Source: Sulfuricurvum sp. (lineage in GTDB: Bacteria; Campylobacterota; Campylobacteria; Campylobacterales; Sulfurimonadaceae). From it: a stretch of 64,000 nt of DNA. The notes under the pieces are model-generated. The model saw only the letters and a program-made list of their open reading frames with translations, ran no database searches and was not told where the DNA came from. Within the stretch, counting starts at the first letter, position 1. Every line of letters begins with the position of its first letter. Below, in pieces: positions 45,207 through 63,166 of this stretch. A program made the position numbers and the translations under genes. The stretch is taken from the NCBI GenBank assembly GCA_024637295.1, contig JAGXFL010000013.1, positions 1 to 64,000 of the forward strand. Direction: 5' to 3'.

Positions 45207-46943
45207 TTGAAATATTTAATTGATTTTTTAGAGAACCCATCCATTGAGCAATCTGAGATTTTTGCACAATTAAAATGTACCGTTGAGGAAGGGAAAGTCC
45301 TCCAACTCTTAACCCGTAAGTTTTTGCAGTCCCAAGAGGATGTTGTCGTAGCCGAATTGCTTCAAGAGCTGTACGGTCCCGATGATTATTCGTATCTAAG
45401 CCATTTTGGGGAAGTTAAAACTCTTCTGGAATTGGGATGGATTACCCATCACTCTTTTACCCCGATCAAAATGAGCGAGCTCTCTCAGTTGGAGTTGTTC
45501 AACACTCCTATCGCATTAACCACGATTTTTATGAAGCTGCTCGAAGAGGGCTCTTTGGAGATGACGCTTCCTGAGATCAAACCGTATGCGGATCATTTGG
45601 AGTATCTGCAAGATCAGTTCTTCCGCATCGAACTGTACCAAAAAATGTCCATTATCCGCAACAACGGGAACGAACATTCATTAGGGATCAACCGTATCCA
45701 AAGCAAGCTCGATTTACTCGAAAAGCGTATTGAAGAGCGGATCGCCCAAACCTCTCAGGATGTCGTATTGGACCGTTTTTTCAAGCAAAAGAAGCTGGAA
45801 CCCAAAGAGCAGGTGATTTTTTTGGCGTTACTCAAAGAGGAATACAGCTCGACCGAGGGAAATTTACGCGAGATGAATACCCTCATCGATCTGATCAGTT
45901 TTGATGATTATGAGCGGATTAAAAACCGTGCATTGCTCGAGGACGGATCACGTCTGATAAATGATGATGTGATTGATTATGAGGAGATGCTCAACCCTTT
46001 TGGCGGAATCAGCCGTGCGTTTTACATTGTCGATGAGGTGCTTCAATCGATCATGCACCCTCAAAAAAAGAAAAAAGCACGTAAACTAAAACTCGATATG
46101 CTGATCAAAGAGCAAGAAATCTTCGAACTCATCGAGCCTACCACGTCATTAGAAAATGTGGTACTCAATCCGGCAACGGATAAAACGCTTCAAAATTTGA
46201 TGCATCAGCTGGATCGTGAAGTTGTCGCGAAATTGCACGAATGGGGAATCAAAGATAAAAAAGCGGGAATCGATGCACGGATTATCTTTTACGGTCCTCC
46301 GGGTACGGGTAAAACCCTCACTGCTCATTCTCTCTCACGCTCATTAAAGCGGCAGGTTTTGAGTTTTGACTGTTCCAAAATCCTCTCGATGTATGTGGGG
46401 GAGTCTGAAAAAAATGTCCGTAAAATATTTGACACTTATGCTGATTTGACAAAGCAAACCAAAACAGAACCGATCCTTTTGCTCAACGAGGCGGATCAGT
46501 TTCTCTCATCACGTTCACAAGGTTCAGGTACATCAGCAGATCAAATGCACAATCAAATGCAAAATATCTTTTTAGAACAGATTGAAAAGTTTCAGGGGAT
46601 ACTGATCGCGACGACCAATCTGCTAGAAAATATCGATCAGGCATTTTCACGCCGATTTAACTACAAGATTGAGTTCAAAAAACCGGATAAGGCACAACGT
46701 CTCAAGTTATGGAAAATGATGCTACCCAAAAATGCACCGTATGAAGAAGGGTTTGAGATTGAAAAACTTTCATCCTACCCATTGACAGGCGGACAAATCA
46801 ATCTTGTTGTTAAAAATACGGCCTATACTGTGGCTACACGTAAAGAACCAAGCTTTCGTTTGGAAGATTTTGTTAATGAAATTGACAAAGAACGCCAAGG
46901 AAATTTTGACACCGAAAAATCAATGGGCTTTTTAAATAATTAA
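45207..46943 (+). CDS. AAA+ ATPase of unknown function
   Basis: A 578-residue protein. Residues 1-340 are mostly helical and not recognised. The AAA+ module follows: Walker A GPPGTGKT at 363-370, pore-loop-like SMYVGES at about 394-400, Walker B ILLLNEAD with Asn427 in place of the usual aspartate and Glu428 kept, sensor 1 ATTN at 468-471 and the arginine-finger region SRRF. The layout resembles ATPases that unfold or remodel partner proteins. The start codon is TTG at 45207, with TAAGG upstream; an ATG is not available nearby. Confidence 0.82.
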   Translation: MKYLIDFLENPSIEQSEIFAQLKCTVEEGKVLQLLTRKFLQSQEDVVVAELLQELYGPDDYSYLSHFGEVKTLLELGWITHHSFTPIKMSELSQLELFNTPIALTTIFMKLLEEGSLEMTLPEIKPYADHLEYLQDQFFRIELYQKMSIIRNNGNEHSLGINRIQSKLDLLEKRIEERIAQTSQDVVLDRFFKQKKLEPKEQVIFLALLKEEYSSTEGNLREMNTLIDLISFDDYERIKNRALLEDGSRLINDDVIDYEEMLNPFGGISRAFYIVDEVLQSIMHPQKKKKARKLKLDMLIKEQEIFELIEPTTSLENVVLNPATDKTLQNLMHQLDREVVAKLHEWGIKDKKAGIDARIIFYGPPGTGKTLTAHSLSRSLKRQVLSFDCSKILSMYVGESEKNVRKIFDTYADLTKQTKTEPILLLNEADQFLSSRSQGSGTSADQMHNQMQNIFLEQIEKFQGILIATTNLLENIDQAFSRRFNYKIEFKKPDKAQRLKLWKMMLPKNAPYEEGFEIEKLSSYPLTGGQINLVVKNTAYTVATRKEPSFRLEDFVNEIDKERQGNFDTEKSMGFLNN

Positions 46944-47231: not shown

Positions 47232-47621
47232 ATGGAACATTACAACGTCGCAAATCCTTATTTTGGGGTATTTGTACTGTTTGTTATCACGTTTGGAGCA
47301 TTTTATGCGACAACAGTATTGGCACGCTTGGCGAGCCGCGCATTAGCGGCTAAAGATACAGAAAAATTGAAACTTTCGCCGTATGAGTGTGGTCCAGAGG
47401 TTACTCGCCAGCCAAACCGAATCTCGACGCAGTTTTATCTCTTTGCGCTTTTGTTTTTGCTGTTTGATGTGGAGATCGTCTTTATGTTCCCATGGGCAAT
47501 TGACTTTAAGCTGTTGGGTTGGTTTGGTTTCTTTGAGATGATGACGTTCATCTTATTGTTAGCAATCGGTTTTGTTTATGCATGGAAAAAAGGAGCACTC
47601 GAATGGCACAACATCAAGTAA
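47232..47621 (+). CDS. nuoA: Complex I subunit NuoA
   Basis: A 129-residue protein with three membrane helices, one at the N-terminus and two in the C-terminal half, and the family signature [43 protein letters not shown] between and within them. NuoA is in the membrane arm next to the quinone site. Its last 19 bases overlap the nuoB start, so translation is coupled. It is the first gene of the operon, about 80 bases after the likely transcription start. Confidence 0.97.
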
Positions 47622-48112
47622 ATTATTTAAAAGACGGCGGTCTTCCCGTCGCTTTGACTACGATTGATAAAGTCGTAAACTGGGGTCGTTCAAATTCGAT
47701 TTGGGCATTAACATACGGTTTGGCATGCTGCGGTATCGAGATGATGGCATCGGGTGCGTCACGTTATGACTTTGACCGTTTTGGTACGATCTTCCGTGCG
47801 TCTCCTCGTCAAGCAGAACTTATGGTCGTTGCAGGAACATTGACAAAAAAACACGCAGAGTTCATTCGCCGTTTGTACGATCAAATGACAGAACCTAAGT
47901 GGGTTATCTCTATGGGATCATGTGCCAACACCGGTGGTATGTTTAATACATACGCAACTGTTCAAGGGGTTGACCGTGTTATTCCGGTGGATCTTTATCT
48001 TCCAGGTTGTGCACCTCGTCCTGAGACATTACAGTATGCGGTAATGATGCTACAGCAAAAAATTCGTAAAGAGAGTGCTTCACGGGCACAAAAACCAAAA
48101 AGGTTGATGTAA
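47603..48112 (+). CDS. nuoB: Complex I subunit NuoB
   Basis: A 169-residue subunit holding cluster N2. Ligands are Cys42, Cys43 ([10 protein letters not shown]), Cys107 (GSCANTGG) and Cys136 (PGCAPRPE), the unusual tandem-cysteine set. The frame is open further upstream to 47582, but the ATG at 47603 gives the normal start [10 protein letters not shown]. It overlaps nuoA by 19 bases and the nuoC start by one. Confidence 0.97.
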
Positions 48113-48918
48113 TGAGAGCCTATACTCCTAAAGACGACGTACAAAAAAAATCGTATTACACTGATCGCTTTTGGGTTGCTCCACAAGTTGCTAAATCAGA
48201 AGTAAGCGACGATGCCGTTTTTGCAGCCGATTTGGCAGCGATCAAAGCCAAATTTGATGTTTTGGATGCCTATATCCAAGTAGAGCAAATGGTAGTTGTT
48301 ATTAATGCCAATGATAATTATTCGGTTCTTGAGTTTTTAAAAAATGAGTGTGAATACACGCAACTATCAGAGATGAGTGCGATCGATTGGTTGGCAACTG
48401 AGGGAAAATTTGAGATTTTCTATCAAATGTTGAGTATGGCTAAGCGCAAGCGTGTGCGTATCAAATGCAAAATTGATGAAAAAGAAGCGATCCAAAGTGT
48501 TGAGAAACTTTTCCGTAGTGCTGACTGGTCAGAGCGTGAGATGTACGATATGTTTGGGGTTGTTGTTAATAATCACCCATTCATGAAACGCATTTTAATG
48601 CCGGAAGATTGGGAAGGTTTCCCATTACGTAAAACCTATCCTCTTCAAGGGGATGAATTTGCGGCATGGTATGAAGTCGATAAGATCTTCGGAAAAGAAG
48701 CCAGAGAGATCATAGGGCCTGAGAATCGTGATCCTGCACGTATTGATAGATATGATACGCAGCGTTTCTCTAGATTGGGACATGAAGTGCCATTTGGGAC
48801 AGACATCAGCCAGGGTGAACCGGACACTCCTCTTGTGTATCAAGAGAAAGAGGGTGTATTCATGGTTGAAAAATTTGATGCAGAGAAATCCGTTGTGATC
48901 TCTGATCGTCAGCGTTAA
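48112..48918 (+). CDS. nuoC: Complex I subunit NuoC
   Basis: A 268-residue subunit of the peripheral arm with the NuoC signature [44 protein letters not shown]. The N-terminal half is the usual variable part, and the C-terminal extension (about 190-268, including GFDxGT-like [14 protein letters not shown]) is longer than the core. NuoC is not fused to NuoD here, unlike in E. coli. It overlaps nuoB by one base. Confidence 0.96.
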
Positions 48919-48928
48919 GGAGTCGTGA

Positions 48929-50155
48929 ATGCAACAATCCAATCGTCTTAGACCGTTTTTTGAAAACATTACCTTTGATCGTGAAGATAATGAACTCGTT
49001 CTCAACTTCGGCCCTCAGCACCCATCAGCACACGGGCAGTTACGCCTTATGTTGCATTTGCAACAAGAGCAGATCACGAAAGCGCATCCGGATATCGGAT
49101 ATCTTCACCGTGGTATGGAGAAGATGGCAGAGAACATGATTTACAATGAGTTCATGCCAACAACGGACCGTATGGACTATATCGCTTCAAGCTCGAATAA
49201 CTATGGTTTCGCCCTTGCTGTTGAAAAATTGATCGGGCTTGATGTCCCACGTCGTGCAAAAGTCATCCGTATGCTTCTGTTGGAAGTGAACCGTTTGATG
49301 TCTCACCTTTTCTGGTTGGCTACAACAGCACTGGATATTGGTGCGATGACCGTCTTTTTGTATGCTTTCCGTGAGCGTGAGTATTTGATGGATCTTGTAG
49401 AGGATTATTGTGGTGCACGTTTGACCCATGCAGCGATCCGTATCGGTGGAGTTCCATTGGACTTACCGGATAACTTTATGGCTGATTTACGTAAATTTTT
49501 GGATAAATTACCGGAAAACATCAAAGACTACGAAGACTTGTTGGATAAGAATCGTGTTTGGTTGATGCGTATGGAGAACGTGGGTGTTATCTCCAAAGAG
49601 ATGGCATTGAGCTGGGGATGTTCAGGAATCATGCTACGTGCATCTGGCGTCGAGTGGGATATCCGTAAAGAAGAGCCGTATGAATTGTACGATGAAGTAG
49701 AGTTTAATGTTCCTGTTTCGGACAAGGGTGACAACTACGCTCGATATAAACTTTATATGGCAGAGATGCGTGAATCCGCGAAAATTTTGTATCAAGTCAT
49801 CGATATGTATGAGGGGACATCGACTGAATTGATGGCACATGCTCCGCAATACATTTCTGCCCCTAAATTGGACATCATGACGCAAAACTATGCATTGATG
49901 CAGCACTTTGTACTCGTTACACAAGGGATGCGTCCACCAGTGGGTGAAGTATACATTCCGACAGAATCTCCTAAAGGAGAACTTGGATATTACATCAATA
50001 GCCAAGGCGGACCGTACCCATACCGTTTAAAATTACGTGCTCCATCGTTTTGGCATACCGGAATTTTGACTGACTTGTTGCCTGGTCACTATATACCAGA
50101 CGTAGTATCTATCATCGGGACGACCAATATCGTCTTCGGTGAAGTTGACCGTTAA
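48929..50155 (+). CDS. nuoD: Complex I subunit NuoD
   Basis: A 408-residue subunit of the quinone site. Signatures are [74 protein letters not shown], and the C-terminal [49 protein letters not shown] lies before the ATG. Order nuoC-nuoD as usual. Confidence 0.98.
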
Positions 50156-50166
50156 GAAGGACGCTT

Positions 50167-50397
50167 ATGAAACGTTACGATTTACGTCACCTTAAAGGTG
50201 ATTTTTATGACCGCATGGGTGAAATTATGCAATCCGAAACATCAACCAAGGAAGTGTTGATCTTTTTATTCGAGATTGGTGATTTTACACCGATTCAAAA
50301 GAGTGCCGACTTGGTTAAAGCCAAAGGATATGAGCTAATGAATTCGCTGAAGTTTAATGAAGCGGACTGGACCATAGCGGTCAAACATAAGGAATAG
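50167..50397 (+). CDS. Small protein at the NuoE position (HP1264-like)
   Basis: A 76-residue soluble protein with no cysteine, so it cannot carry the [2Fe-2S] cluster of a true NuoE. Sequence: MKRYDLRHLKGDFYDRMGEIMQ..., a compact mixed fold ending WTIAVKHKE. From memory, Helicobacter pylori (HP1264) and Campylobacter have a small unknown gene of this size at exactly this place, followed by a larger unknown in place of nuoF. It is probably a specialised subunit of the reduced input module. GAAGGACGC upstream is the ribosome site. The flavoprotein gene starts 2 bases after its stop. Confidence 0.8.
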   Translation: MKRYDLRHLKGDFYDRMGEIMQSETSTKEVLIFLFEIGDFTPIQKSADLVKAKGYELMNSLKFNEADWTIAVKHKE

Positions 50398-50399
50398 TT

Positions 50400-52436
50400 G
50401 TGAGCAAAGTCTATTTTTCCACATGGCGCGGGGAGCAGATCAATAACATCGGCAAACCCGAAGAAGAGTGGGAAGTATCTGCTTATAATCTCCCTGCAGA
50501 TTATAATGAGCATGCCCATTCCAAAGCATTTATCGGGTGGGATGGTTTAGCACTGTTCAATCCCGATGTCGATGTGGTTCGTCTAGCTACTGAGTATGCA
50601 GCACAATATCAAGTCTATTCCGAAGCATGCGGACGTTGTGCACCAGGGCGATGGGGTGGACGTATTTTGTATGATCTGTTAGATAAAATTGCTCGAGGTG
50701 AGGGTGCCGTATCCGATATGGACCATCTCAAAGAAGTTTCAAAAACGATGCAGGAAACCTCAAAATGTGAGATAGGGAAAACGGTTCCTACTCCATTGCT
50801 GGATCTGATGCACCATTTTGAAGCGGAATTTATGGATTGTATCAACAACCAAAAAGCGTCCAAGCATTATCACATGGAAGATACGAACTATATCGCCAAG
50901 ATCACCGCACCATGTATGGATGCATGTCCGGCGCATGTTGACATTCCGGCGTATATTGAGGGTGTCCGTGATTTACGTTTTGATGATTCATTGATGGCGA
51001 CACGTCAGACAATGCCTTTGGCACATACATGCGGACGTGTTTGTCCACATCCTTGTGAGACAGAATGTCGTCGTACCAATCTTGATGAGCCAATCTCGAT
51101 TATGGAACTCAAACGTTTAGGTGCGGATTATGAAACGGATCATGGATTTGGGTTCTTTCACCCAAGTGAGCAAAAACCGTTAAATGGTAAAAAAGTGGCA
51201 GTTATTGGTTCAGGTCCTGCAGGATTAACAGGTGCGTACTATATGGCGCTGGACGGTATTGAGGTAGATGTCTATGAAGAGCTTCCGGTTCTTGGCGGTG
51301 AAGTCGCTGTTGGTGTACCTGAATATCGCATGCCCATTGATCGATACAATCAAGACATCGAAGCGGTACGTGATTTGGGCGTTAAGTTTATTACTAACAC
51401 ACGTGTTAGTGCAGATATGATGCGCCAATTTGAAGCCGATTATGACGGGATTTTGGTAGCGACGGGTACACGTATTTCTAAAAAAGTCTATTGTGAAAAC
51501 GAACGTGCCGATATCCAAGGATATTGGGGAGCAATTGATTTCCTCGATAAAGTCAATTTGGAAGTAAAATACGGCATTATGGTTCCTGAAGCGGATCAAA
51601 AGAAGCACATGCTTACCAGTGATTTTGTTGATTTGACAGGAAAAACAGTAGTGTGTGTCGGTGGTGGATTTACCTCGATGGACGTTGTGCGTTGTTCTAT
51701 TCGTGCGAATGCAAAAAAAGTAGTCATGATCTATCGTCGTGATGAAAAGACGATCATTAATAACACGACGTATGAAGAGTATCACGAAGCGGTCGAAGAG
51801 GGTGTTGAATTTATTTTTCACTCGGCGGTTGCTGAGATGCGCGATGAAAATAATGTCTTGAAGTCACTGTTGATCGATATGTTTGAACTGGTTCCTGATC
51901 CAAGTGGCGGACGTCCGACATTGGAAAAAATCGAGGGTGCGTCATTTGAAATGGAGTGTGATTATCTCATCCCAGCTGTTTCTCAAAGTGCTGACTTGAA
52001 ATTAATTCCTGAAGAATGGGAGATTGAACGTACCTCATGGGGCACGATCAAAACAAACGGTAAAGATTACATGACTTCACGCAAAGGGATCTTTGCGGCA
52101 GGTGACTGTGAATACGGGCCGATGACCATTGTCAATGCGGTTGGTCAAGCCAAACGTGCTTCATCGGTTATGTCGCGTTATGTGCAAGAGGGTACGATCA
52201 CATTAAAAGACGATGAGATTATGGAAGATCACTTGCGCAAGCTCAAAGTGTACGATAAAAAAGAAAAAGTGACAGGATGGCTGCCGGGTCTTCCAAGAGA
52301 GCACAGTGAGGTTCTCACGGTGGATGAGCGCAAGTACAACAACAAAGAAGTGAAATACGGCTTTACGCAAGAGCAAGCAATTTCTGAGGCAGAGCGCTGT
52401 ATGCGTTGTTATTACATTGCGATGGTCGCACATTAA
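50400..52436 (+). CDS. NuoF-like iron-sulfur domain fused to a GltD-like flavoprotein
   Basis: A 678-residue protein in the nuoF position. Residues 60-140 resemble the C-terminal [4Fe-4S] domain of NuoF: SEACGRCAPGR with Cys77, Cys80 and Gly83 where the third ligand should be, then Cys123 in KCEIG. From about 165 onwards it resembles GltD, the small subunit of glutamate synthase: cysteines 172, 176, 211, 215, 219 and 223 (CGRVCPHPCETEC), FAD-binding VIGSGPAGLTGAYY (268-281), GGEVAVGVPEYRMP, the NAD(P)-binding VCVGGGFTSMD and the C-terminal AAGDCEYGP. It should oxidise NAD(P)H or another donor and pass electrons to NuoG. The start is GTG. Confidence 0.85.
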   Translation: MSKVYFSTWRGEQINNIGKPEEEWEVSAYNLPADYNEHAHSKAFIGWDGLALFNPDVDVVRLATEYAAQYQVYSEACGRCAPGRWGGRILYDLLDKIARGEGAVSDMDHLKEVSKTMQETSKCEIGKTVPTPLLDLMHHFEAEFMDCINNQKASKHYHMEDTNYIAKITAPCMDACPAHVDIPAYIEGVRDLRFDDSLMATRQTMPLAHTCGRVCPHPCETECRRTNLDEPISIMELKRLGADYETDHGFGFFHPSEQKPLNGKKVAVIGSGPAGLTGAYYMALDGIEVDVYEELPVLGGEVAVGVPEYRMPIDRYNQDIEAVRDLGVKFITNTRVSADMMRQFEADYDGILVATGTRISKKVYCENERADIQGYWGAIDFLDKVNLEVKYGIMVPEADQKKHMLTSDFVDLTGKTVVCVGGGFTSMDVVRCSIRANAKKVVMIYRRDEKTIINNTTYEEYHEAVEEGVEFIFHSAVAEMRDENNVLKSLLIDMFELVPDPSGGRPTLEKIEGASFEMECDYLIPAVSQSADLKLIPEEWEIERTSWGTIKTNGKDYMTSRKGIFAAGDCEYGPMTIVNAVGQAKRASSVMSRYVQEGTITLKDDEIMEDHLRKLKVYDKKEKVTGWLPGLPREHSEVLTVDERKYNNKEVKYGFTQEQAISEAERCMRCYYIAMVAH

Positions 52437-52445
52437 GGGGGATGG

Positions 52446-54695
52446 ATGATTAACTTTATAATAAACAACCAACCCGTATCTGCGGCAAAAGGGGAAACCA
52501 TTCTCCAAGCAGCACGCAAAGCGGGATTCTACATTCCAACGATGTGCTATTTGGAAAAAACGAAGCCGTGTGCGTCATGCCGTTTATGTGTGGTTGAAGC
52601 CAATACAACCGATGGTCTTATCTTAAGTTGTCAAACGCCACCAACTGAGGGTCTGGAAGTTACGCTTGACTCTGATCGATTACAGCTGGAACGCACTAAT
52701 ATCATGCGCATGTACGATGTCAATCACCCATTAGAATGCGGTGTCTGTGATAAGTCCGGTGCCTGTGATCTTCAGAACAAAACATTAGAATTCAACATTG
52801 ACAAGCAGCACTTTACAGCAAAAGAGCAGCCGCGTAAAATTGAGCATTGGGGATTGATCAATTATGATCCCTCTTTGTGTATCTTGTGTGAAAAGTGTGT
52901 CCATGTATGTAATGAGATCATCGGGGACGACGCCATAACATTACAGTTCGGTGGTTATAAGTCTGCTGTTATTCCTAAAAACAATGATAAATTGGATTGT
53001 ACATTCTGCGGAGAGTGTATTGCAGTTTGCCCTGTTGGCGCATTGGTTAGCTCTGATTTTCAATATAAAGCGAACTCATGGGAACTAACACCTGTTCCTG
53101 CGGCATGTGCACACTGTTCGGCTGGATGTTCGCTGACGTATGAAGTTAAACACACATCCATCGCAACCGGTGATGAAGAGCGTATTTATCGTGTGACGAA
53201 CAATTTCGAATACGCTACCCTTTGCGGTGCCGGACGATTTGGATTCGATTTTGATGTGCAGGGACAAAAAGAGCCAGAAGTATTTGAAAAAGCAGTGTCA
53301 GCACTTCAAGATGCGAAAGCCATCCGTTTTAGCTCAATAATCACCAATGAAGAAGCTATGATACTCCAACGCTTAAAAGAGAAATTGGGGATCAAACTTT
53401 TCAATGAAGAAGCGAGAGCGTATCAATCCTTTATGAATGCATATGGATCTATCAGTGGAAAATCAACCTTCAGCGGCACGTTGGATGCAATCGCTCAAAG
53501 TGATGCGATTATCATTCTGGGTGGACGTATCACAACGGATAACCCTGGTGTTCGATATGCGATGACTACAGCGGCACGTCATAACGGTGCCAAAATTATC
53601 TACATGCACCCGCTTGAAGATGCTTTATTGCAAAACACAGTGACACAGTTTATAAAATATGAAGCGGGCGCTGAAGAGGGTGTGATGGCAATGTTGGCCA
53701 AAACTCTTTTGTCGGATGCTGATCTTAGTGATGAATTTAGATCATTTTTTAATGAATTGGATGAAGGTTATTTGTGCGCCGAAAGCAATGTCGGTGATGA
53801 AGAATTTGCCCGTATTGAAAAATCATTACGTCGTACTAAACGCAAAACATTGGTTATCGGTTCGGATGTATTGAATCACAACCGTGCGCAAAACATTGCC
53901 CGTTTGGCTGCGCTTGTCGAAACGTATACTGACTTTTCTTTGATCGTTATCCCTCAAAACGTTAATACGGTAGGGGTTTCACTGATCTGTGATTTGGATC
54001 GCGATGAAGAGATCGAAAGTGTTGTCGGTTATAACGCTAAGGGAGATTTTGTAATTGCCTCATCGATTGGCAGTGATCTCGTAGTGCCTGCGTTAAACAG
54101 TCAAGAGGGGACGTTTGTCAGTATGAATCATCAGCTGTTACCAACCAATGTTGCAATAGCTTTTAAAGGGTACTGCTTGAATGATCTTGGCAATGCTCTT
54201 GGATTACGTATGGTCAACACCATTGATTACACCCAACAGCTTCCAAAAGAAAAAGGGTTTAATGCAACAGCATTTGATCATCTTGGAAATTTTTACGGTT
54301 CATTGGGTGAAGACAACAGAGGCTATCTGTTAGAGACACAAGATGTCGATGCGAATGGCAAGCTTGAGAGTGTAGAATCATTACCGGAATTTAATGGTAC
54401 GGTTATTTATCGCTGCAATCCGGTGAACCAGTTTAATAGTTATACAGCACGTACCGCTCAGCTTGAACGTGACAGTGCACTTCGCGGTTCAGCGCAATTT
54501 GCTGCAGCTGCACGTATTAGTGATGGCGATACAGTAGAGATCCAATCCAACGGATCGATCGAAGTGCGAACTTTTGTGCTGGACAATACGCTGAAGGGAA
54601 CTATCGCATTATCTCCGACATTTGACACTGAGTTTGGAGTGATAAATGAGAGTTACCGCTTTGAGAAAATTAAAATTGTGAGGGTGGGTAGTTGA
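52446..54695 (+). CDS. nuoG: Complex I subunit NuoG, first copy
   Basis: A 749-residue protein with all the NuoG iron-sulfur sites: [2Fe-2S] N1b (Cys34, Cys45, Cys48, Cys62), His-Cys3 cluster (His94, Cys98, Cys101, Cys107), two ferredoxin-type clusters (Cys145, 148, 151, 155; Cys185, 188, 191, 195) and N7-type (Cys221, 224, 228, 260). The molybdopterin-like domain, without catalytic cysteine, follows to the C-terminus. The double ferredoxin region is extra relative to the E. coli protein. It starts 9 bases after the flavoprotein stop. Confidence 0.93.
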   Translation: MINFIINNQPVSAAKGETILQAARKAGFYIPTMCYLEKTKPCASCRLCVVEANTTDGLILSCQTPPTEGLEVTLDSDRLQLERTNIMRMYDVNHPLECGVCDKSGACDLQNKTLEFNIDKQHFTAKEQPRKIEHWGLINYDPSLCILCEKCVHVCNEIIGDDAITLQFGGYKSAVIPKNNDKLDCTFCGECIAVCPVGALVSSDFQYKANSWELTPVPAACAHCSAGCSLTYEVKHTSIATGDEERIYRVTNNFEYATLCGAGRFGFDFDVQGQKEPEVFEKAVSALQDAKAIRFSSIITNEEAMILQRLKEKLGIKLFNEEARAYQSFMNAYGSISGKSTFSGTLDAIAQSDAIIILGGRITTDNPGVRYAMTTAARHNGAKIIYMHPLEDALLQNTVTQFIKYEAGAEEGVMAMLAKTLLSDADLSDEFRSFFNELDEGYLCAESNVGDEEFARIEKSLRRTKRKTLVIGSDVLNHNRAQNIARLAALVETYTDFSLIVIPQNVNTVGVSLICDLDRDEEIESVVGYNAKGDFVIASSIGSDLVVPALNSQEGTFVSMNHQLLPTNVAIAFKGYCLNDLGNALGLRMVNTIDYTQQLPKEKGFNATAFDHLGNFYGSLGEDNRGYLLETQDVDANGKLESVESLPEFNGTVIYRCNPVNQFNSYTARTAQLERDSALRGSAQFAAAARISDGDTVEIQSNGSIEVRTFVLDNTLKGTIALSPTFDTEFGVINESYRFEKIKIVRVGS

Positions 54696-54698
54696 ATC

Positions 54699-57185
54699 AT
54701 GAATGAAATAACGATAACCATAGACGGGAAATCGGTTCAGACGCAAGAGGGTGAATTTATTCTTAATGCGGCACGCTCGAATGGCATTTTTATCCCTGCC
54801 ATTTGTTATTTGACACGCTGTTCTCCAACCTTGGCATGTCGTATATGTTTGGTGGAAGCGGACGGAAAACAAGTCTATGCGTGTAATGCAAAAGCAAAAG
54901 ATGGGATGAGTATTGTAACGAGCACATCAACCATCGAAGATGAAAAGCGTGCAATCATGGAGGTTTATGATGTAAACCATCCATTGGAGTGCGGTGTATG
55001 TGACCAATCAGGAGAGTGTGAGTTGCAAAACTATACACTCGAAATGGGAGTAGACTCACAAACGTATTCGATAGCGGATACGCATAAACCAGCACAAGAT
55101 TGGGGTTTGATCCATTATGACCCTGCTTTATGTATTATGTGTGAGCGCTGTATAACCGTATGTAAAGACATGATCGGTGATGGGGCCCTCTCAACGGTTG
55201 CCCGCGGTGGCGATGCGATTGAAGCAGCATTCAAGGAAACAATGCCAAAAGATGCCTATGCGATGTGGAATAAGCTCAATAAATCATTGATCGCACCTAA
55301 TGCAGGGGATACCCTTGACTGTACCAATTGCGGTGAGTGTACCTCGGTTTGTCCAGTAGGAGCATTGGTCAGTAGTGATTATCAATACAGTGCTAATGCT
55401 TGGGAGCATACACAGATTCCGGCAACATGTGCACACTGCAGTGCAGGATGCCAAATCAGTTACGATATCAAACACACAAGCATTACTGATCCGGAAGATA
55501 AAATCTATCGGGTCAAAAATGAGTGGAACTACGTGTCACTTTGTGGTGCTGGACGCTATGGATACGATTTCCAAAACAGTGATGTCCAAAAAGACGCTGT
55601 AAAGTTTGATGCTGCAGTTGCCGCATTTAAAAAAGCAGATACGATCAGTTTCACATCGACTATTACGAATGAAGAAGCGATGATCTTACAACGCTTAAAA
55701 GAAAAATTCGGTTACCGTTTGATCAATGAAGAAGCACGGGTATTTAAAGCATTTTTAAATTCATACAGTACCATTAGCGGTCAATCACTTTACAGCGGTA
55801 ACTTAAAAGAAGTACATGAGAGTGATTTCGTGGTTTCCATCGGAAGCGCACTGAAAACGGACAATCCAAATGCCCGTTTTGCCATGAACAATGCCATCAC
55901 GATGAACAAAGGGGCAGGCCTTTATTTTCACCCGATTAACGATCCTGTTATCAATGACATGTCCAAAAATGTGACGCAGTTCAATCATGCGGCGATGATG
56001 GAAGAAGCGGCATTGTATTTGATGCTTGATTTATTTGGGGATAAATCGGCGATGCCATCGGAAGTAGTGAGTTATTTGGCAACGTTCCATTCGACAAAAA
56101 TGGTCACCATCGAAGAGACGATCGATGAAAAAGTGACCGAAACCGTTGTCAAAAAAGTCCTCAACGAAGAAACTGGTATTGAAGAAGAGGTGAGCGAAGA
56201 GGTCACAAAAACGGTCAAGAAAAAAGTATCTAAAGAAGTAGAAGTGGACACTAACCGTCTTTATGAACTTTTGAATGCACCGGAAGGTTTTGCTGATACC
56301 TTGACCAAATATTTAGCCAAAAAAGAAAAATTTGCATTGATGGTCGGTCCTGATCTGTACAGCCACCCAAATTCCATCAATTGTGCCCGTTTGGTTGCGT
56401 TGATCGAAAAATACACAGCCTTCAATGTAACCATGATTCCCAATCTGTCGAATACATTGGGAACAGCATTGATCTGTGATCTAGACGCGACTGCCGGAAG
56501 CTATACAATTGGATATAATACAGCAGGAAATTTCACATTGAGTGCCCTGGGCAACGGTGATTTGGATATGCCGGCACTTAATCAGCAAGAGGGAACGTTA
56601 ACCAGTATTGATAAGAGGGTTAACCCTACGAATGTCGCGGTAGGATTTGGCGGGTATACGCTCAACGATATTGCGAATGCACTTGGGTTTAATGAGAGAT
56701 TAACAGTGAACTATACGAAACAACTTCCAGTAAATGCTGGATTTAAAGCCGTAGAGTTTGATACATTGCCAAATCACTATACGAATGCGGGTGAAGAGAT
56801 GCGCGGTTATGTACTTACCACTTCAAGCGTTAGTATAAATGGTGATGAAAGTGTTAGTAGATTTGATGAATCGGCTGCGATGAGAAAGGGGATTGTGTAT
56901 TTAGCAAACCCAGTTTTACAGTTTACGCCATTTACGGCCAAAGCACATCAGCTTAAAGAGTCAGGCGGGCTATATGCATCGGCTGCCTTCATGAGTGCAA
57001 ATGGTGTAAATGAAGGGGATCGTGTCCGTGTGAAAACGGATAAGGGCGAGATCGTTGTGAATGTGATCGCTGATGGAAAAATTGATGGTGAGATTCCATA
57101 TCTTCCAACATTTGACACACAAATAAATTCTAGTACATTGTTTAACGGCTACCGTTTTGCAACTGTATCAATTCAAAAGGTGTAA
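54699..57185 (+). CDS. nuoG: Complex I subunit NuoG, second copy
   Basis: An 828-residue paralogue of the preceding gene with the same cluster set: Cys36, 47, 50, 62; His94, Cys98, 101, 107; Cys145, 148, 151, 155; Cys208, 211, 214, 218; Cys244, 247, 251, 282. An insert at about 165-205 separates the ferredoxin halves. A Lys/Glu/Val-rich insert at about 467-517 is made of an imperfect repeat (DEKVTETVVKKV and SEEVTKTVKKKV). Both copies are intact and share NEEAMILQRLKEK. It begins 3 bases after the first copy; nuoH follows 2 bases later. Confidence 0.93.
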   Translation: MNEITITIDGKSVQTQEGEFILNAARSNGIFIPAICYLTRCSPTLACRICLVEADGKQVYACNAKAKDGMSIVTSTSTIEDEKRAIMEVYDVNHPLECGVCDQSGECELQNYTLEMGVDSQTYSIADTHKPAQDWGLIHYDPALCIMCERCITVCKDMIGDGALSTVARGGDAIEAAFKETMPKDAYAMWNKLNKSLIAPNAGDTLDCTNCGECTSVCPVGALVSSDYQYSANAWEHTQIPATCAHCSAGCQISYDIKHTSITDPEDKIYRVKNEWNYVSLCGAGRYGYDFQNSDVQKDAVKFDAAVAAFKKADTISFTSTITNEEAMILQRLKEKFGYRLINEEARVFKAFLNSYSTISGQSLYSGNLKEVHESDFVVSIGSALKTDNPNARFAMNNAITMNKGAGLYFHPINDPVINDMSKNVTQFNHAAMMEEAALYLMLDLFGDKSAMPSEVVSYLATFHSTKMVTIEETIDEKVTETVVKKVLNEETGIEEEVSEEVTKTVKKKVSKEVEVDTNRLYELLNAPEGFADTLTKYLAKKEKFALMVGPDLYSHPNSINCARLVALIEKYTAFNVTMIPNLSNTLGTALICDLDATAGSYTIGYNTAGNFTLSALGNGDLDMPALNQQEGTLTSIDKRVNPTNVAVGFGGYTLNDIANALGFNERLTVNYTKQLPVNAGFKAVEFDTLPNHYTNAGEEMRGYVLTTSSVSINGDESVSRFDESAAMRKGIVYLANPVLQFTPFTAKAHQLKESGGLYASAAFMSANGVNEGDRVRVKTDKGEIVVNVIADGKIDGEIPYLPTFDTQINSSTLFNGYRFATVSIQKV

Positions 57186-57187
57186 GC

Positions 57188-58192
57188 ATGGATGTAGCAT
57201 TTATCATCGAAACAATTGTCAAAATTGTTGTGATCTTATTGGTTTTCTCAGCCCTTGCAGGTTTCGGGACCTATTTTGAACGTAAAGTTCTTGCATTTAT
57301 GCAACGTCGTTTGGGGCCGATGCATGTTGGTCCATACGGGTTGTTGCAAGTAGCGGCCGATGGGATAAAACTTTTTACCAAAGAAGATATTATTCCTCAA
57401 AATGTTGTAAAGCCGATCTTTAAATTAGCACCGGTAATTACGGCTGCTACTGCGTTTATGGCTGCAGCTGCAATTCCATTTTGGCCTGAATTTACTGCTT
57501 TTGGATATAAAGTACATCCAATTGTAGCTGATGTCAATGTCGGTATATTGTATGTCATGGCGGTCATGGCGATTGGTCTTTACGGTCCATTGCTTGGTGG
57601 TATGGCATCGGCGAATAAGTTTTCCTTGATCTCAGCTGCTCGTAGTGCGGCCGTATTTATTTCGTATGAGGTCATAACAGGACTTGCACTTTTAGCCCCA
57701 TTGATGATGGTGGGGTCACTCTCGTTGATTGATATAAACAATTATCAAACTGGTGGAATTAGCAATTGGATTGCTGTTTCTCAACCAGTTGCATTTATTT
57801 TATTTTGGATTGCCGCATTTGCAGAGACAGGGCGTACACCGTTTCACCTTGTAGCAAATGACCATGAAATCATCGACGGGTTTGGTACGGAGTACTCAGG
57901 AATGAGATGGGGTCTTTTCTTCATCGGTGAGTATGCCAATATGTTCTTTATATCATTTGTTATGGCGATCATCTTTTTAGGTGGTTACGGTGACGGTTCG
58001 ATTGCGGGAGCATTGCAATTGCTACTCAAAGTCGCTTTCTTTTTCTTCTTTTTCCTTTGGACAAGAGCAGCATGGCCGGATATTCGACCTGACCAGTTGA
58101 TGTGGTTGTGCTGGAAAGTGTTGATGCCGATCGCTGTCGTCAATGTCGTAATAACTGGTGTTGTTATTTTGATTAAACAAGGGGGCATGTAA
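57188..58192 (+). CDS. nuoH: Complex I subunit NuoH
   Basis: A 334-residue membrane subunit with about eight helices that forms part of the quinone tunnel. Signatures: [42 protein letters not shown], then [42 protein letters not shown]. The AND in the second segment stands where many have PEAESEL. The nuoI start overlaps its last base. Confidence 0.97.
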
Positions 58193-58812
58193 TGCACGTA
58201 GAGCCGTTTACAGACCGTAACGTAAGTGAGCAAAGCGCTTATTACTATGTTGATATTGAAAACTATCCGGTAACCGGATGGGACAAATTTAAACAAGTGG
58301 TGAAGCGTTCCATTAAAGGGGAACTTTTTGTGGGCCTATGGGTTGTCATGCGAGAGCTGATCAAATTTGATATCCACACTGTGCAATATCCGAAAGAAAA
58401 ATTGCCAATCGGTCCACGTTATCGTGCAGTGCATAAGCTATTGCGTTTGTGGGAATCTGGATTTGAGCGTTGTATCGGATGCGGATTGTGTGAAAAGATC
58501 TGTATCTCAGATTGTATTCGTATGGATACACGCATCGATGAGAATAGTCGTAAAGAAGTGACTGAGTACAGCATTAACCTTGGACGTTGTATTTTCTGCG
58601 GATATTGTGCAGAAGTGTGTCCTGAATTAGCAATTGTACACGGTGACCGTTATGAAAATGCATCCGAACAGCGTGCTCACTTTGTTATCAAAGACGATAT
58701 GCTCACTCCACTTGACTTTTTAACTTCTGGACAACAAAAAGAGTATCCAGGTTTTGGTGCAATAACCCCACATGAGGACGAGCGTGTTGCAAAAACACCG
58801 CTCGCCTATTAA
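58192..58812 (+). CDS. nuoI: Complex I subunit NuoI
   Basis: A 206-residue peripheral-arm subunit with two [4Fe-4S] clusters (N6a and N6b). Ligands are Cys94, Cys97, Cys100 and Cys104 ([12 protein letters not shown]; a further Cys at 108 is nearby) and Cys133, Cys136, Cys139 and Cys143 ([14 protein letters not shown]). The C-terminus carries about 50 residues beyond the core. It overlaps nuoH by one base. Confidence 0.97.
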
Positions 58813-58822
58813 GGAGATATGA

Positions 58823-59410
58823 ATGTTTGAAGCAATTGCTTTTTATCTGTTTGCGGCATTGACTATTGCTATGTTTACCATTACCGTGATGACATCACAG
58901 GCGTTGTATGCATTAACAGCGATGGCGGCTGGGATGATTTTCATCTCGGCATTTTTCTTTATTCTCGGGGCTGATTTCCTTGGTGTCATTCAGATCATTG
59001 TTTATACGGGTGCGGTTATGGCATTGTATGCGTTTGGTATGATGTTTTTTGATACAACACGTACTGTCGTTGAAAAACGGGACAATCCAAGAGTGATTTT
59101 CATTCTGGGAGTATTGGCAGCTACGTTGGTTGTCTTTATATTGGTTTCACCGATTATTTCAACACACATAGAAGCAAATTATCCAATAAATGCAGCTATG
59201 GGTAATTCGGAAACGATCGGATTGATTTTGTTTACAAAGTTCTTGGTTCCGTTTGAGATTGCTGCCGTAATGCTTTTGGTTGCCATGATTGCAGGTATTG
59301 TTTTGGCCGGTAAGAAGATGGACAAATCATTGACGTTGATGGCAGAAGAGGAAATTGCACTTATGAGTGCAACACAAGCTAAGCCAGAGACAGAAGAAGG
59401 AGCACACTAA
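58823..59410 (+). CDS. nuoJ: Complex I subunit NuoJ
   Basis: A 195-residue membrane subunit with about five helices (IAFYLFAALTIAMFTITVM; ALTAMAAGMIFISAFFFILGADFLGVIQIIVYTGAVMALYAFGMMFF; VIFILGVLAATLVVFILVS and FLVPFEIAAVMLLVAMIAGIVLA). The stretch QIIVYTGAVMALYAF is a NuoJ hallmark (pi-bulge region). The C-terminus is charged. AAGGAGA is the ribosome site. It overlaps the nuoK start by one base. Confidence 0.95.
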   Translation: MFEAIAFYLFAALTIAMFTITVMTSQALYALTAMAAGMIFISAFFFILGADFLGVIQIIVYTGAVMALYAFGMMFFDTTRTVVEKRDNPRVIFILGVLAATLVVFILVSPIISTHIEANYPINAAMGNSETIGLILFTKFLVPFEIAAVMLLVAMIAGIVLAGKKMDKSLTLMAEEEIALMSATQAKPETEEGAH

Positions 59411-59715
59411 TGGAAATAACATTAGCTCACTACCTGGTATTGTCAGGTGTACTGTTTTCGATTGGTCTAATTGGGGTAATGCGTCGTAAAAATTTGCTGA
59501 TGCTTTTCTTTGCAACGGAAATATTGCTTAACGCAACCAATATTGGTTTTGCGGCAATCGCTCATTATCACGGTGACTTGACGGGGCAGATGTTCGCATT
59601 TTTTGTGATTGCGATTGCTGCATCTGAAGTTGCAGTCGGACTTGGATTGTTGATTGTATGGTATAAACGTACCGGTAAGATCGACCTAGATATTATGACA
59701 TCGATGCGAGGATAA
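59410..59715 (+). CDS. nuoK: Complex I subunit NuoK
   Basis: A 101-residue membrane subunit with three helices, of standard NuoK length. It has LSGVLFSIGLIGVMRRKNLLMLFFATEILLNATNIGF with the two glutamates of proton pathways (Glu in ATEILLN, and one in ASEVAVGLGLLIVWYKR). nuoL follows 3 bases later. Confidence 0.96.
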   Translation: MEITLAHYLVLSGVLFSIGLIGVMRRKNLLMLFFATEILLNATNIGFAAIAHYHGDLTGQMFAFFVIAIAASEVAVGLGLLIVWYKRTGKIDLDIMTSMRG

Positions 59716-59718
59716 ACA

Positions 59719-61608
59719 ATGGAAATTTATTTATACATCGCACTTTTTGCGCCACTGGCAGGTTCTTTGTTCTCTGCACTATTTGGTGCATCACCAAAGA
59801 CGAGCGTGACAGGAATCGTTGCCTCTGGATTATTATTTATTTCATTTGTAAGCAGTGCTATATTGCTCAATTACGTCATGATGGGTCATACGGTTCATGT
59901 TGAGATGATGACGTGGATCGCGGCTGGGGATCTTTACATACCATTTGGGTTTGTTGTGGATCAAGTGAGTGTCGTTATGATGATGGTTGTCAGTGTCGTA
60001 TCAACCGTTGTTCATATCTATTCTGTCGGTTACATGGATCATGACAAAGGGTTTAATCGCTTTTTCTCATACTTAAGTGCATTCGTGTTCTCGATGATGG
60101 TATTGGTTATGAGTGATAATTTCCTGGGCCTGTTTATCGGATGGGAAGGGGTTGGTCTTTGTTCGTGGCTTTTGATCGGTTTTTGGTATCACAAAGAATC
60201 GGCTACATGGGCTGCTAATGAAGCATTCATTATGAACCGTATTGCAGACTTGGCAATGTTGATCGGTATTTTTATTGTTTATTGGAACATCGGTTCGTTG
60301 CAGTACGACGTTGTCTTTTCTCAAATCGCTAATCTCCCTATGCCGATTATCACTTGGATCGGGATTTTCCTCTTTATTGGAGCGATGGGTAAATCGGCAC
60401 AATTTCCGTTACATACATGGCTTGCCGATGCGATGGAAGGCCCAACGCCTGTTTCAGCTTTGATCCATGCGGCTACCATGGTAACTGCAGGGGTTTATTT
60501 GGTCGTTCGTGCGAATCCGATTTATTCTTTGATTCCTGAGGTGGGTACGGTTATCGCGTCACTAGGTGCATTTGTCGCAATGTTTGCGGCAACTATGGCA
60601 TTGGTCAATCGTGACATGAAGCGTATCATTGCGTACTCTACTTTGTCACAATTGGGTTATATGTTTGTAGCAGCAGGCCTTGGTGCTTACTGGGTCGCAT
60701 TGTTCCATCTTATGGCGCATGCATTTTTCAAAGCGTTGCTTTTCCTAGGTGCAGGTAACGTTATGCACGCAATGCATGATGAATTGGATCCATTTAAAAT
60801 GGGTGGGTTGAAAAAACCGATGAAATGGACATGGATTCTTATGACACTGGCTTCGGTTGCATTGGCGGGTATCTATCCATTGGCTGGATTCTTTTCAAAA
60901 GATCTTATTTTGGAAGTTGCGTTTGTAGAACAGCATTATGTCTTGTATACGGTTTTATTGTTAACTGCAGGTTTGACCGCATTTTACTCATTCCGTCTTG
61001 TGGCGTTGATTTTCAATGGAGATGAAAGACATCTTGAACACGGTATTCACCCTCATGAAGCGTATAACTTCATGTTGTATGCAATGGCCCCGTTAGGTCT
61101 ATTGGCAGTCATCGCGGGTATGGTGTTTAAAACTCCGTATTATGAAATGGTGACACACCTTTTACCGGCACTTGAATACCATATTCATAACCATACGACA
61201 TTTTGGATTATGACGATTGGCACGCAGTTGTTTGTTATTGCAGCGATTGCCTATGCGTACAAAAAGTACGCTAAAGCGGTCAAAGTAGATAAAAAAGTGG
61301 AATCTGGCTTTTTCTATCAACTGCTTTATAACCAATATTACATTCCTAAACTCTATGATGAGTTGTTTTCGAAGCCGTACCGTGAGCTCTCAAGAATAGC
61401 TTGGAAACAAATTGATCTTAAAATCGTTGATGCAACGGTTGACGGAATCGCGAATGTCATCTATCGTACAGGTGAAAAAACACATACCATGCAAAACGGT
61501 AACTTATCTAGCATGTTGCGCTGGATGGTTATTGGTTTAGTGGTTTTATTGGTACTAGCTGTCGCATTTACTGTTGGATATAACGCAGTAACTATGCGGG
61601 CGATGTAA
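59719..61608 (+). CDS. nuoL: Complex I subunit NuoL
   Basis: A 629-residue antiporter-like proton-pumping subunit with about sixteen membrane helices and a long C-terminal lateral helix. Signatures: SYLSAFVFSMMVLVMSDNFLGLFIGWEGVGLCSWLLIGFWY, AMGKSAQFPLHTWLADAMEGPTPVSALIHAATMVTAGVYL, LVNRDMKRIIAYSTLSQLGYMFVAAGLG and FHLMAHAFFKALLFLGAG. The last third (about 500-629) holds the lateral helix. It precedes nuoM by a few bases. Confidence 0.97.
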   Translation: MEIYLYIALFAPLAGSLFSALFGASPKTSVTGIVASGLLFISFVSSAILLNYVMMGHTVHVEMMTWIAAGDLYIPFGFVVDQVSVVMMMVVSVVSTVVHIYSVGYMDHDKGFNRFFSYLSAFVFSMMVLVMSDNFLGLFIGWEGVGLCSWLLIGFWYHKESATWAANEAFIMNRIADLAMLIGIFIVYWNIGSLQYDVVFSQIANLPMPIITWIGIFLFIGAMGKSAQFPLHTWLADAMEGPTPVSALIHAATMVTAGVYLVVRANPIYSLIPEVGTVIASLGAFVAMFAATMALVNRDMKRIIAYSTLSQLGYMFVAAGLGAYWVALFHLMAHAFFKALLFLGAGNVMHAMHDELDPFKMGGLKKPMKWTWILMTLASVALAGIYPLAGFFSKDLILEVAFVEQHYVLYTVLLLTAGLTAFYSFRLVALIFNGDERHLEHGIHPHEAYNFMLYAMAPLGLLAVIAGMVFKTPYYEMVTHLLPALEYHIHNHTTFWIMTIGTQLFVIAAIAYAYKKYAKAVKVDKKVESGFFYQLLYNQYYIPKLYDELFSKPYRELSRIAWKQIDLKIVDATVDGIANVIYRTGEKTHTMQNGNLSSMLRWMVIGLVVLLVLAVAFTVGYNAVTMRAM

Positions 61609-61618
61609 GGAGCTGTTG

Positions 61619-63166
61619 ATGCAAGAACACATTTTATCGATCTTAATTTTCTTCCCGGCATTGGCTGCAATGCTCGGATTTGTTGTTCACAAAGACAGCG
61701 CGCGAGCTTATGGTATCACGGTTGCTGCTATTGAATTTTTTCTCTCTTTGTGGTTGTGGAATCTATATGATCCTATGACATCAGGGATGCAGTTTATGGA
61801 GCAAGCTCCGCTTGTTGCTGCATTCGGGATCAATTATCTCGTAGGTATTGATGGTATTTCATTGTTTATTATCATTTTGTCTACGTTTTTCACGATGATT
61901 GGTATCGCTTCACTCACAGAAACGCGCCGTGTCAAAGACCTTATTATCACATTACTCTTTTTAGAGATGACTATGGTAGGAGTATTTGCGGCACTTGACG
62001 CAATCGTTTTCTATGTTTTCTGGGAACTTTCTTTGATTCCAATGCTGTATATTATCGGTGCATGGGGCGGACCGCTTCGTATTTACGCATCGATCAAGTT
62101 TTTCTTGTATACCTTTACAGGTTCATTGGTAATGTTGGTTGGTATGTTGTTTATGGCGTATTTCTACTATCAAGCTACAGGTCAATGGAGTTTTTCATTG
62201 TTAGAGTGGTATCGATTGATCTTGCCGCTTAATTTCCAACTTTGGCTATTTGCGGCTTTCTTTATCGGTTTTGCGATCAAGGTGCCGATGTTTCCATTCC
62301 ACACATGGTTACCGTATGCACACGGACAAGCTCCAACAATCGGTTCTGTCATCCTTGCGGCTATTTTGCTTAAAATGGGAACGTATGCGTTTGTCCGTTT
62401 TTCATTGCCATTGTTTCCGGATGCATCCGTGTTTTTCATGTTCCCGATTGCGATATTAGCCATTATTATGATTATCTATACTGCGATGGTAGCTTACGCA
62501 CAAGAAGATATCAAACAAGTAGTAGCTTACAGTTCGGTATCGCATATGGGTGTTATCGTTCTTGGTACGTTTGCCCTTAACGTTGAAGGTATCAGTGGAT
62601 CGATTTTCTTGATGATCGCGCACGGGGTTGTATCAGGCGCACTGTTCTTGCTGGTTGGTGTCATCTACGACCGTCGTCACACGAAACTGATGTCTGAATT
62701 TGGAGGACTTGCTTCGGTAATGCCTCGTTATGCAACGATTTTTGGGATCATGATGATGGCATCGGTAGGTTTGCCGTTAACCATCAATTTTGTGGGTGAA
62801 TTTTTAAGTCTTCTTGGATTTTACAAGCAGTCACATGCATTTACACTTGTGGCAGGGACAGCGATTATCGTAGGAGCTATTTATATGCTAAGTGCGTATA
62901 AAAAAATGTTTTTCGGCAATGTTACCAAAGATGAGAATAAACATCTCAAAGATGTGAATATGACAGAGCTATTGGCATTAGTACCGTTAGTGGTGATTAC
63001 GGTTTGGCTAGGGGTTTATCCAAAACCACTGCTAGAACCTATTAGTCATAGCGTTGAACCAATTGTTCAATTAATGCATGACAAAGCACAAACAGCAGAA
63101 GCGCAAGCACGTATCCCAAATCTGGCTAATCCAGAAGCTATGAATTCACAAGAGGAGACACGCTAA
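61619..63166 (+). CDS. nuoM: Complex I subunit NuoM
   Basis: A 515-residue antiporter-like proton-pumping membrane subunit. It has [95 protein letters not shown] and [25 protein letters not shown] one codon upstream (61616) could serve, but the ATG at 61619 is well spaced from AAGGAG. The nuoN ATG overlaps its stop by one base (TAATG). Confidence 0.96.

Follow-up and report, generated by a model that had tools for sequence, protein, structure and literature searches.

A tandem pair of NuoG subunits in the complex I operon of Sulfuricurvum and the likely origin of the Helicobacter and Campylobacter "NuoF"

Complex I is usually described as possessing one NuoG and one NADH module. The operon considered here encodes two NuoGs in succession, which raises the question of how two such subunits are used and from which partner they receive electrons. 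The stretch analyzed (the window) comprises 64,000 nucleotides of Sulfuricurvum sp. (assembly GCA_024637295.1, contig JAGXFL010000013.1, positions 1 to 64,000, forward strand). Its nuo operon has the order A-B-C-D-[E-like]-[F]-G1-G2-H-I-J-K-L-M, and the order A-B-C-D-E-F-G1-G2-H-I-J-K-L-M is conserved across many families. The protein at the NuoF position is referred to as F, and the two NuoGs as G1 and G2. The genes are the following:

47232..47621, forward strand: nuoA
47582..48112, forward strand: nuoB (open reading frame; the real start is possibly more internal)
48112..48918, forward strand: nuoC
48929..50155, forward strand: nuoD, the sole NuoD of the genome
50167..50397, forward strand: small subunit at the NuoE position (PF16514), a relative of HP1264 (PDB 2lxr)
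50400..52436, forward strand: F, an N3-like domain (PF10589) fused to Fer4_20 and a GltD/NfnB/SfrB-like FAD-NAD(P)H domain
52446..54695, forward strand: NuoG1 (G1), 749 aa, with N1b, His-Cys3, two ferredoxin-type [4Fe-4S] sites, N7, and a molybdopterin-oxidoreductase-like scaffold
54699..57185, forward strand: NuoG2 (G2), 828 aa, cluster set as in G1
57188..58192, forward strand: nuoH
58192..58812, forward strand: nuoI (clusters N6a/N6b)
58823..59410, forward strand: nuoJ
59410..59715, forward strand: nuoK
59719..61608, forward strand: nuoL
61616..63166, forward strand: nuoM

In the whole genome, PF10588 (the His-Cys3 domain of NuoG) has two matches, namely G1 and G2, NuoD is encoded once, and neither PF01512 (classical NuoF FMN domain) nor PF01257 (NuoE) is found. 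Hence, the organism has one complex I, and both NuoGs lie in its operon. An AAA+ ATPase with a winged-helix domain is encoded just 5' of nuoA on the same strand (45207-46943), as it is upstream of nuoA in 60 sampled loci of many families; its candidacy as a complex-I-specific factor was rejected, since it is also present in a genome without NuoD (G060).

Integrity and age of the two NuoG copies

The first-pass annotation had described two complete tandem NuoGs with all visible cluster ligands, common motifs, and differing lengths and inserts, and this description holds. Both are full open reading frames separated by 3 nt, and they score 890.6 bits (G1) and 1178.2 bits (G2) against the Campylobacterota NuoG model NF006305 (cut-off 591). 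Both contain the PF13510 and PF10588 domains, an N4-type ferredoxin domain, and a molybdopterin-oxidoreductase-like C-terminal scaffold, the last two recognized by sequence and model in G1 and by sequence in G2. The ligands are complete in both copies: N1b (C34/C45/C48/C62 in G1; C36/C47/C50/C62 in G2), His-Cys3 (H94/C98/C101/C107 in either), two ferredoxin-type sites (C145/C148/C151/C155 and C185/C188/C191/C195 in G1; C145-C155 and C208-C218 in G2), and N7 (C221/C224/C228/C260 in G1; C244/C247/C251/C282 in G2).

The fold and the N1b/N5/N4/N7 ligand pattern are those of canonical NuoG (Thermus Nqo3, E. coli NuoG), and the window operon differs in encoding two NuoGs instead of the one per canonical complex. 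The G1 model (pLDDT 86.2) aligns with Thermus Nqo3 (4hea_3) over 644 residues (Z 25.4, 3.4 A) and with formate dehydrogenase alpha subunits at Z about 27. The second ferredoxin-type site is lacking in E. coli NuoG and present in that of Rhizobium.

No variation was seen at N1b, His-Cys3, and C145/C148/C151/C195 in any of the 77 G1 sequences, nor at any ligand other than those of N7 (C145/C148/C151 and C218 included) in the 107 G2 sequences. All ligands of the second ferredoxin-type site are present in 69/77 G1s and in every G2; each N7 ligand is retained in 74-77 of the 77 G1s, but N7 is kept in 72 of 107 G2s. In canonical complex I, the through-wire is N1b-N4-N5, so the never-lost ligands of G1 correspond to the through-wire set, as would fit a relay. 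A separate observation is the loss of the second ferredoxin-type cluster from G1 in several lineages (loci L058, L060, L061, L063-L066, and L115); in the lineages of one family (f7), G1 is also without N7, and the N1b, His-Cys3, and N4-type ligands are retained.

Overall identity between G1 and G2 is 44%, and motifs such as NEEAMILQRLKEK occur in both. They differ in length (749 vs. 828 aa) and at fixed positions along their entire length. G1 carries a specific scaffold motif, LDEGYLCAESNVGDEE. Most G2s possess an insert rich in E, K, V, and T (about 60 aa in the window) at the place where G1 and the shorter protein S, described below, have a conserved acidic motif. Of 14 positions conserved only in G1, 13 are in the scaffold half, as judged from columns of G1, G2, and canonical NuoG with few and distant outgroups. 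Together with the acidic motif, these positions would fit a specialized docking role of the G1 scaffold.

Phylogeny, by which the duplication was to be dated, resolves G1 and G2 as two clades with many families in each. The outgroup of the rooted tree consisted of formate dehydrogenase, laterally acquired conventional NuoGs, and sequences from E. coli, Rhizobium, and Komagataeibacter. In it, G1 forms one clade (92) and G2 another (98, starred), each with members from many of the sampled families; fast-evolving rows were excluded, and single nodes are of limited trust given the "quick" method and the long outgroup branches. This tree superseded a first, unrooted one, in which the G1 of locus L116 sat on a very long branch and G2 was paraphyletic. 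Since each clade spans many families, the duplication is older than the split of those families. Purifying selection on both copies of the window genome is strong, with dN/dS values of 0.043 (G1) and 0.041 (G2) in comparison with a close relative.

These results bear on the simplest explanation of a tandem pair, i.e., a recent duplicate without a role of its own. The sequence and motifs common to G1 and G2 speak for such redundancy, which is nevertheless refuted by the age of the duplication and by the selection on both copies, and disagrees with a loss pattern tied to F (see below); it is hardly tenable. Two loci deserve separate mention. In L116 (genome G156, family f14, the Helicobacter-containing family), F, G1, and G2 are all present and all fast-evolving; thus, F and G1 were probably present near the base of this family. 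In L100, the NuoG directly after F resembles a G1/G2 hybrid (750 bits as G1, 850 bits as G2), pointing to gene conversion or to misassembly of the two copies.

The subunits at the NuoE and NuoF positions and the probable joint loss of F and the G1 Fe-S domain

A pair of NuoGs had been thought to fit the absence of NuoE and NuoF. The classical domains are indeed missing genome-wide, but both places are filled (50167-50397 and 50400-52436), so simple absence was rejected; and the supposed fit is reversed, since full-length G1 accompanies F and is not seen without it. The protein at the NuoE position matches PF16514 and PDB 2lxr, i.e., HP1264 of H. pylori, for which FMN binding has been reported (PMC6269979). 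It contains no thioredoxin-like [2Fe-2S] NuoE domain (PF01257), and it is present in operons with F and in operons without it.

F starts with a domain resembling the C-terminal N3 domain of NuoF (PF10589), followed by a part akin to the GltD/NfnB/SfrB-like FAD-NAD(P)H oxidoreductases; the FMN/NADH-binding 51-kDa domain (PF01512) was not found in it. The N3-like site (residues 77-123) has C77, C80, and C123 only, the third Cys being Gly in 78 of 78 sequences, so that F lacks the four Cys of the N3 [4Fe-4S] site of NuoF. As this site is one canonical Cys short in all sequences, its cluster and the step from F to G1 are uncertain; judging by the residues present, a cluster at this place, if any, must be unusual. 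The assignment of the remainder to the GltD/NfnB/SfrB-like proteins follows from Fer4_20 and the pyridine-nucleotide-disulphide FAD/NAD(P) folds. F aligns with 9bov_A over 500 residues (E 2e-78), and its best PDB alignments are with the GltD domains of the GltD-NuoG fusion subunits of Stn/NfnABC transhydrogenases. The GltD-family relatives and the conserved YRR motif suggest NADPH, and not NADH, as the substrate of F.

Among solved structures, those nearest to the GltD part of F belong to the StnABC/NfnABC transhydrogenases (PDB 8oh5, 9bov, 9n5u), in which StnC combines a GltD-like and a NuoG-like part. In StnABC, electrons from NADPH and FAD of the GltD-like domain pass through the GltD clusters to the NuoG-like clusters, and an inactive molybdopterin-like domain joins the StnC subunits (PMC10482914). 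Electron delivery from F to a NuoG would thus have a solved precedent in StnC. In the window, F and G1 are separate genes, and the acceptor would be a second NuoG within complex I; StnA (NuoE-like) and StnB (NuoF/HydB-like), which make up the Stn-type bifurcating module, have no counterpart in the genome as far as PF01257 and PF01512 can reveal them.

The sampled loci represent most families of Campylobacterales carrying a Campylobacterota-type nuo operon, and the counts refer to 111 loci with a readable E-to-H interval (L048 and L073 were read by hand). F, G1, and G2 occur together in 75 (in three of these one NuoG is split into two frames), a shorter protein (S) accompanies G2 in 32, and G2 stands with neither in 4. 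In none of the 111 does F or full-length G1 occur without the other. Of the 36 loci devoid of F, 32 retain S, a protein of 235-483 aa, in the corresponding place. G2 is retained in every examined nuo operon of the Campylobacterota type. Many of the loci are closely related, so the number of events matters more than that of loci: on the NuoBCDHILM tree, the F+G1 state changes 6 times, and at least 5 of the changes are forced by starred branches. These changes are read as losses for three reasons: families with S are nested inside groups with F and G1, a 483-aa intermediate (L088) starts at G1 residue 274, and the Helicobacter-like L121 and L122 are without even S. Thus, some five or six joint losses of F and the Fe-S domain of G1 appear to have taken place. 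An obligatory bridge from G1 through N7 of G2 was considered and rejected, as the N7 ligands of this copy are missing in 8 of the 75 genomes still carrying G1 and F.

The co-occurrence of F and G1 also brings to mind a separate soluble NADPH-dependent oxidoreductase merely co-transcribed with nuo. Its model is SfrAB, the soluble two-subunit Fe(III) reductase of Geobacter, in which a GltD-like subunit (SfrB) stands beside a NuoG-like one (SfrA) (PMC7483475); the likeness is one of description. Unlike SfrAB, F and G1 are embedded in the nuo operon; in all examined operons that are intact, the pair follows nuoD/E and precedes nuoG2. Classical subunits for NADH entry into complex I are, moreover, missing from the genome, and a summary given in PMC4178425 links the remnant found in place of G1 to electron entry into Campylobacter complex I. 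This reading is, accordingly, very improbable.

The Helicobacter and Campylobacter "NuoF" as a remnant of G1

The Campylobacterota-type complex I known from C. jejuni, H. pylori, and Sulfurospirillum multivorans (epsilon-Nuo, with nuoXY for nuoEF; PMC6682613, PMC4585668) has the same operon order as the window and likewise possesses the PF16514 subunit at the NuoE position and NuoG2. Its NuoF-position protein is homologous to G1 of the window. The two differ in that the window encodes a full-length, cluster-bearing G1 along with F, whereas the known host-associated epsilon-Nuo has only the G1 scaffold and relies on flavodoxin/ferredoxin.

This homology rests on several lines of evidence. S matches the G1 profile with E 5e-73 over G1 columns 299-756, as against 0.27 for F, and has the signature LDxGYxSAExNxGEEE in common with G1. 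Taken separately, Campylobacter-like S matches G1 with E 9e-33 and G2 with 1.5e-8, and Helicobacter-like S matches G1 with E 4e-28 and G2 far more weakly; S gave no match to control profiles with shuffled or reversed columns. The product of the Campylobacter/Helicobacter "nuoF" locus has no Pfam match, homology to NuoF was not detected in it, and hhalign against F (NuoF N3 domain only) returned E 0.06-0.7. In the AlphaFold model of a Campylobacter-like S (pLDDT 88.6), 235 of 238 residues can be aligned with molybdopterin oxidoreductases (Z up to 18.2), and the Foldseek matches of the model include Thermus Nqo3. By profile and predicted fold, S is the G1 scaffold minus the Fe-S domain.

The NuoE-position protein of locus L090 is identical to HP1264 at 75 of 76 residues, so that L090 is H. 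pylori or very near to it and its S corresponds to the HP1265 locus, annotated as "NADH-ubiquinone oxidoreductase chain F" (PMC3561388). The C. jejuni equivalent, by position, is Cj1574c. As summarized from Weerakoon and Olson (2008) in PMC4178425, Cj1574c and Cj1575c stand in for NuoF and NuoE and mediate electron transfer from flavodoxin to complex I. What was not expected from the known Campylobacterota complex I is that the Helicobacter/Campylobacter "NuoF" is the scaffold of the first NuoG. The open literature searched contained no report of a tandem NuoG, or of NuoF/NuoY as a NuoG relic. An origin is thus offered for the unexplained NuoF-position subunit of H. pylori and C. jejuni, the standing "NuoF" annotation is corrected, and the change of the electron donor of complex I becomes directly testable.

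Proposed wiring of the input end

At the outset, the NuoG pair had been read either as part of one extended electron wire or as a set of alternative input modules. Comparison across loci favors the first of these uses and speaks against the second. The single complex I of the genome, the persistence of the G1 scaffold beside G2 even where the Fe-S domain is gone, and the place of the remnant locus Cj1574c in Campylobacter electron entry, as outlined in PMC4178425, all argue for one wire. Hence, G1 and G2 are probably (with a probability of roughly 0.6) co-assembled permanently in one complex I and wired in series. G2 alone suffices where G1 is without clusters, which makes it the most likely electron donor to NuoI; the clusters of G1 exist only along with F, and so most likely serve F.

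In the window organism, the co-assembly of G1 and G2, their order, the NADPH substrate, and the direction of flow would then be as follows. Hydride from a pyridine nucleotide, probably NADPH, would reduce FAD in the GltD-like domain of F, from where electrons would pass via the Fe-S clusters of F to those of G1 (N1b, ferredoxin-type, His-Cys3). G1, an ancient duplicate on the input side of G2 and the bearer of F, would hand them over to G2, acting as an ordinary NuoG, and further to NuoI, NuoB, and menaquinone. During autotrophic growth, the path may be reversed, producing NADPH. The molybdopterin-fold half of G1 would anchor the input module on the complex, and in lineages switching to flavodoxin/ferredoxin, F and the Fe-S domain of G1 would be lost jointly, leaving the scaffold as NuoF/NuoY (Cj1574c, HP1265).

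In the alternative-module reading, G1 (with F) and G2 share a single NuoI site, and conditions decide which of them a given complex contains. Being complete NuoGs, both could in principle occupy NuoI. However, 32 loci keep a cluster-less G1 scaffold together with G2, so the scaffold cannot replace G2, and, according to the account in PMC4178425, the G1-scaffold locus is implicated in Campylobacter electron entry. Only 3 nt separate the two genes, which belong to one operon, and the fixed differences over the full length, as well as the concentration of G1-only positions in the scaffold half, also go against interchangeable copies. This makes the reading improbable.

Somewhat better placed, if still unlikely, is a branched arrangement within the same complex, where F and G1 form a bifurcating or confurcating side module (e.g., for NADPH plus flavodoxin/ferredoxin) and G2 is a second, independent entry. 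It draws on the relatedness of F to the GltD-like NfnB, StnC, and SfrB, on the ability of G2 to take electrons alone in lineages without F, such as the Campylobacter enzyme as summarized in PMC4178425, on the NuoE-position subunit (with reported FMN binding in H. pylori) being kept in both operon types, and on the retention of the side clusters (second ferredoxin-type and N7) in most G1s and G2s. Yet the genome has neither StnA/B-like or HydB-like proteins nor a classical NuoE/NuoF FMN subunit, StnC itself has lost bifurcation (PMC10482914), and the clusters never lost from G1 are limited to the through-wire set, fitting a relay.

If the serial arrangement is the preferred one for the window, complex I in much of Campylobacterales would have an input end newly assembled from an NADPH-dehydrogenase-like subunit and a second NuoG. 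Extending this to the ancestor is more tentative, and the odds are put at even that the ancestral Campylobacterales complex I had two serial NuoGs fed by a GltD-like NADPH dehydrogenase, in a chain of as many as about 16 Fe-S clusters. Repeated loss of F and of the first NuoG's Fe-S domain would then have given rise to the flavodoxin-driven Helicobacter/Campylobacter form, in which the scaffold of that NuoG persists as an electron-donor dock misnamed NuoF.

S is also encountered outside the operon. In two genera of one family (f9, g14 and g69), the Campylobacterota-type nuo operon is gone, and a lone S adjoins the AAA+ ATPase in at least 9 species (L127:9607-10377; also L133, L134, L135, L136, and L142-L145). 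Its dN/dS of 0.11-0.58 indicates that selection is relaxed yet still purifying. Genome G008 (locus L137) encodes a conventional NuoEFG-type complex I elsewhere; the conventional complex I of L132 and L137, whose NuoF measures about 410 aa and whose NuoG is short (460-485 aa), was apparently acquired separately.
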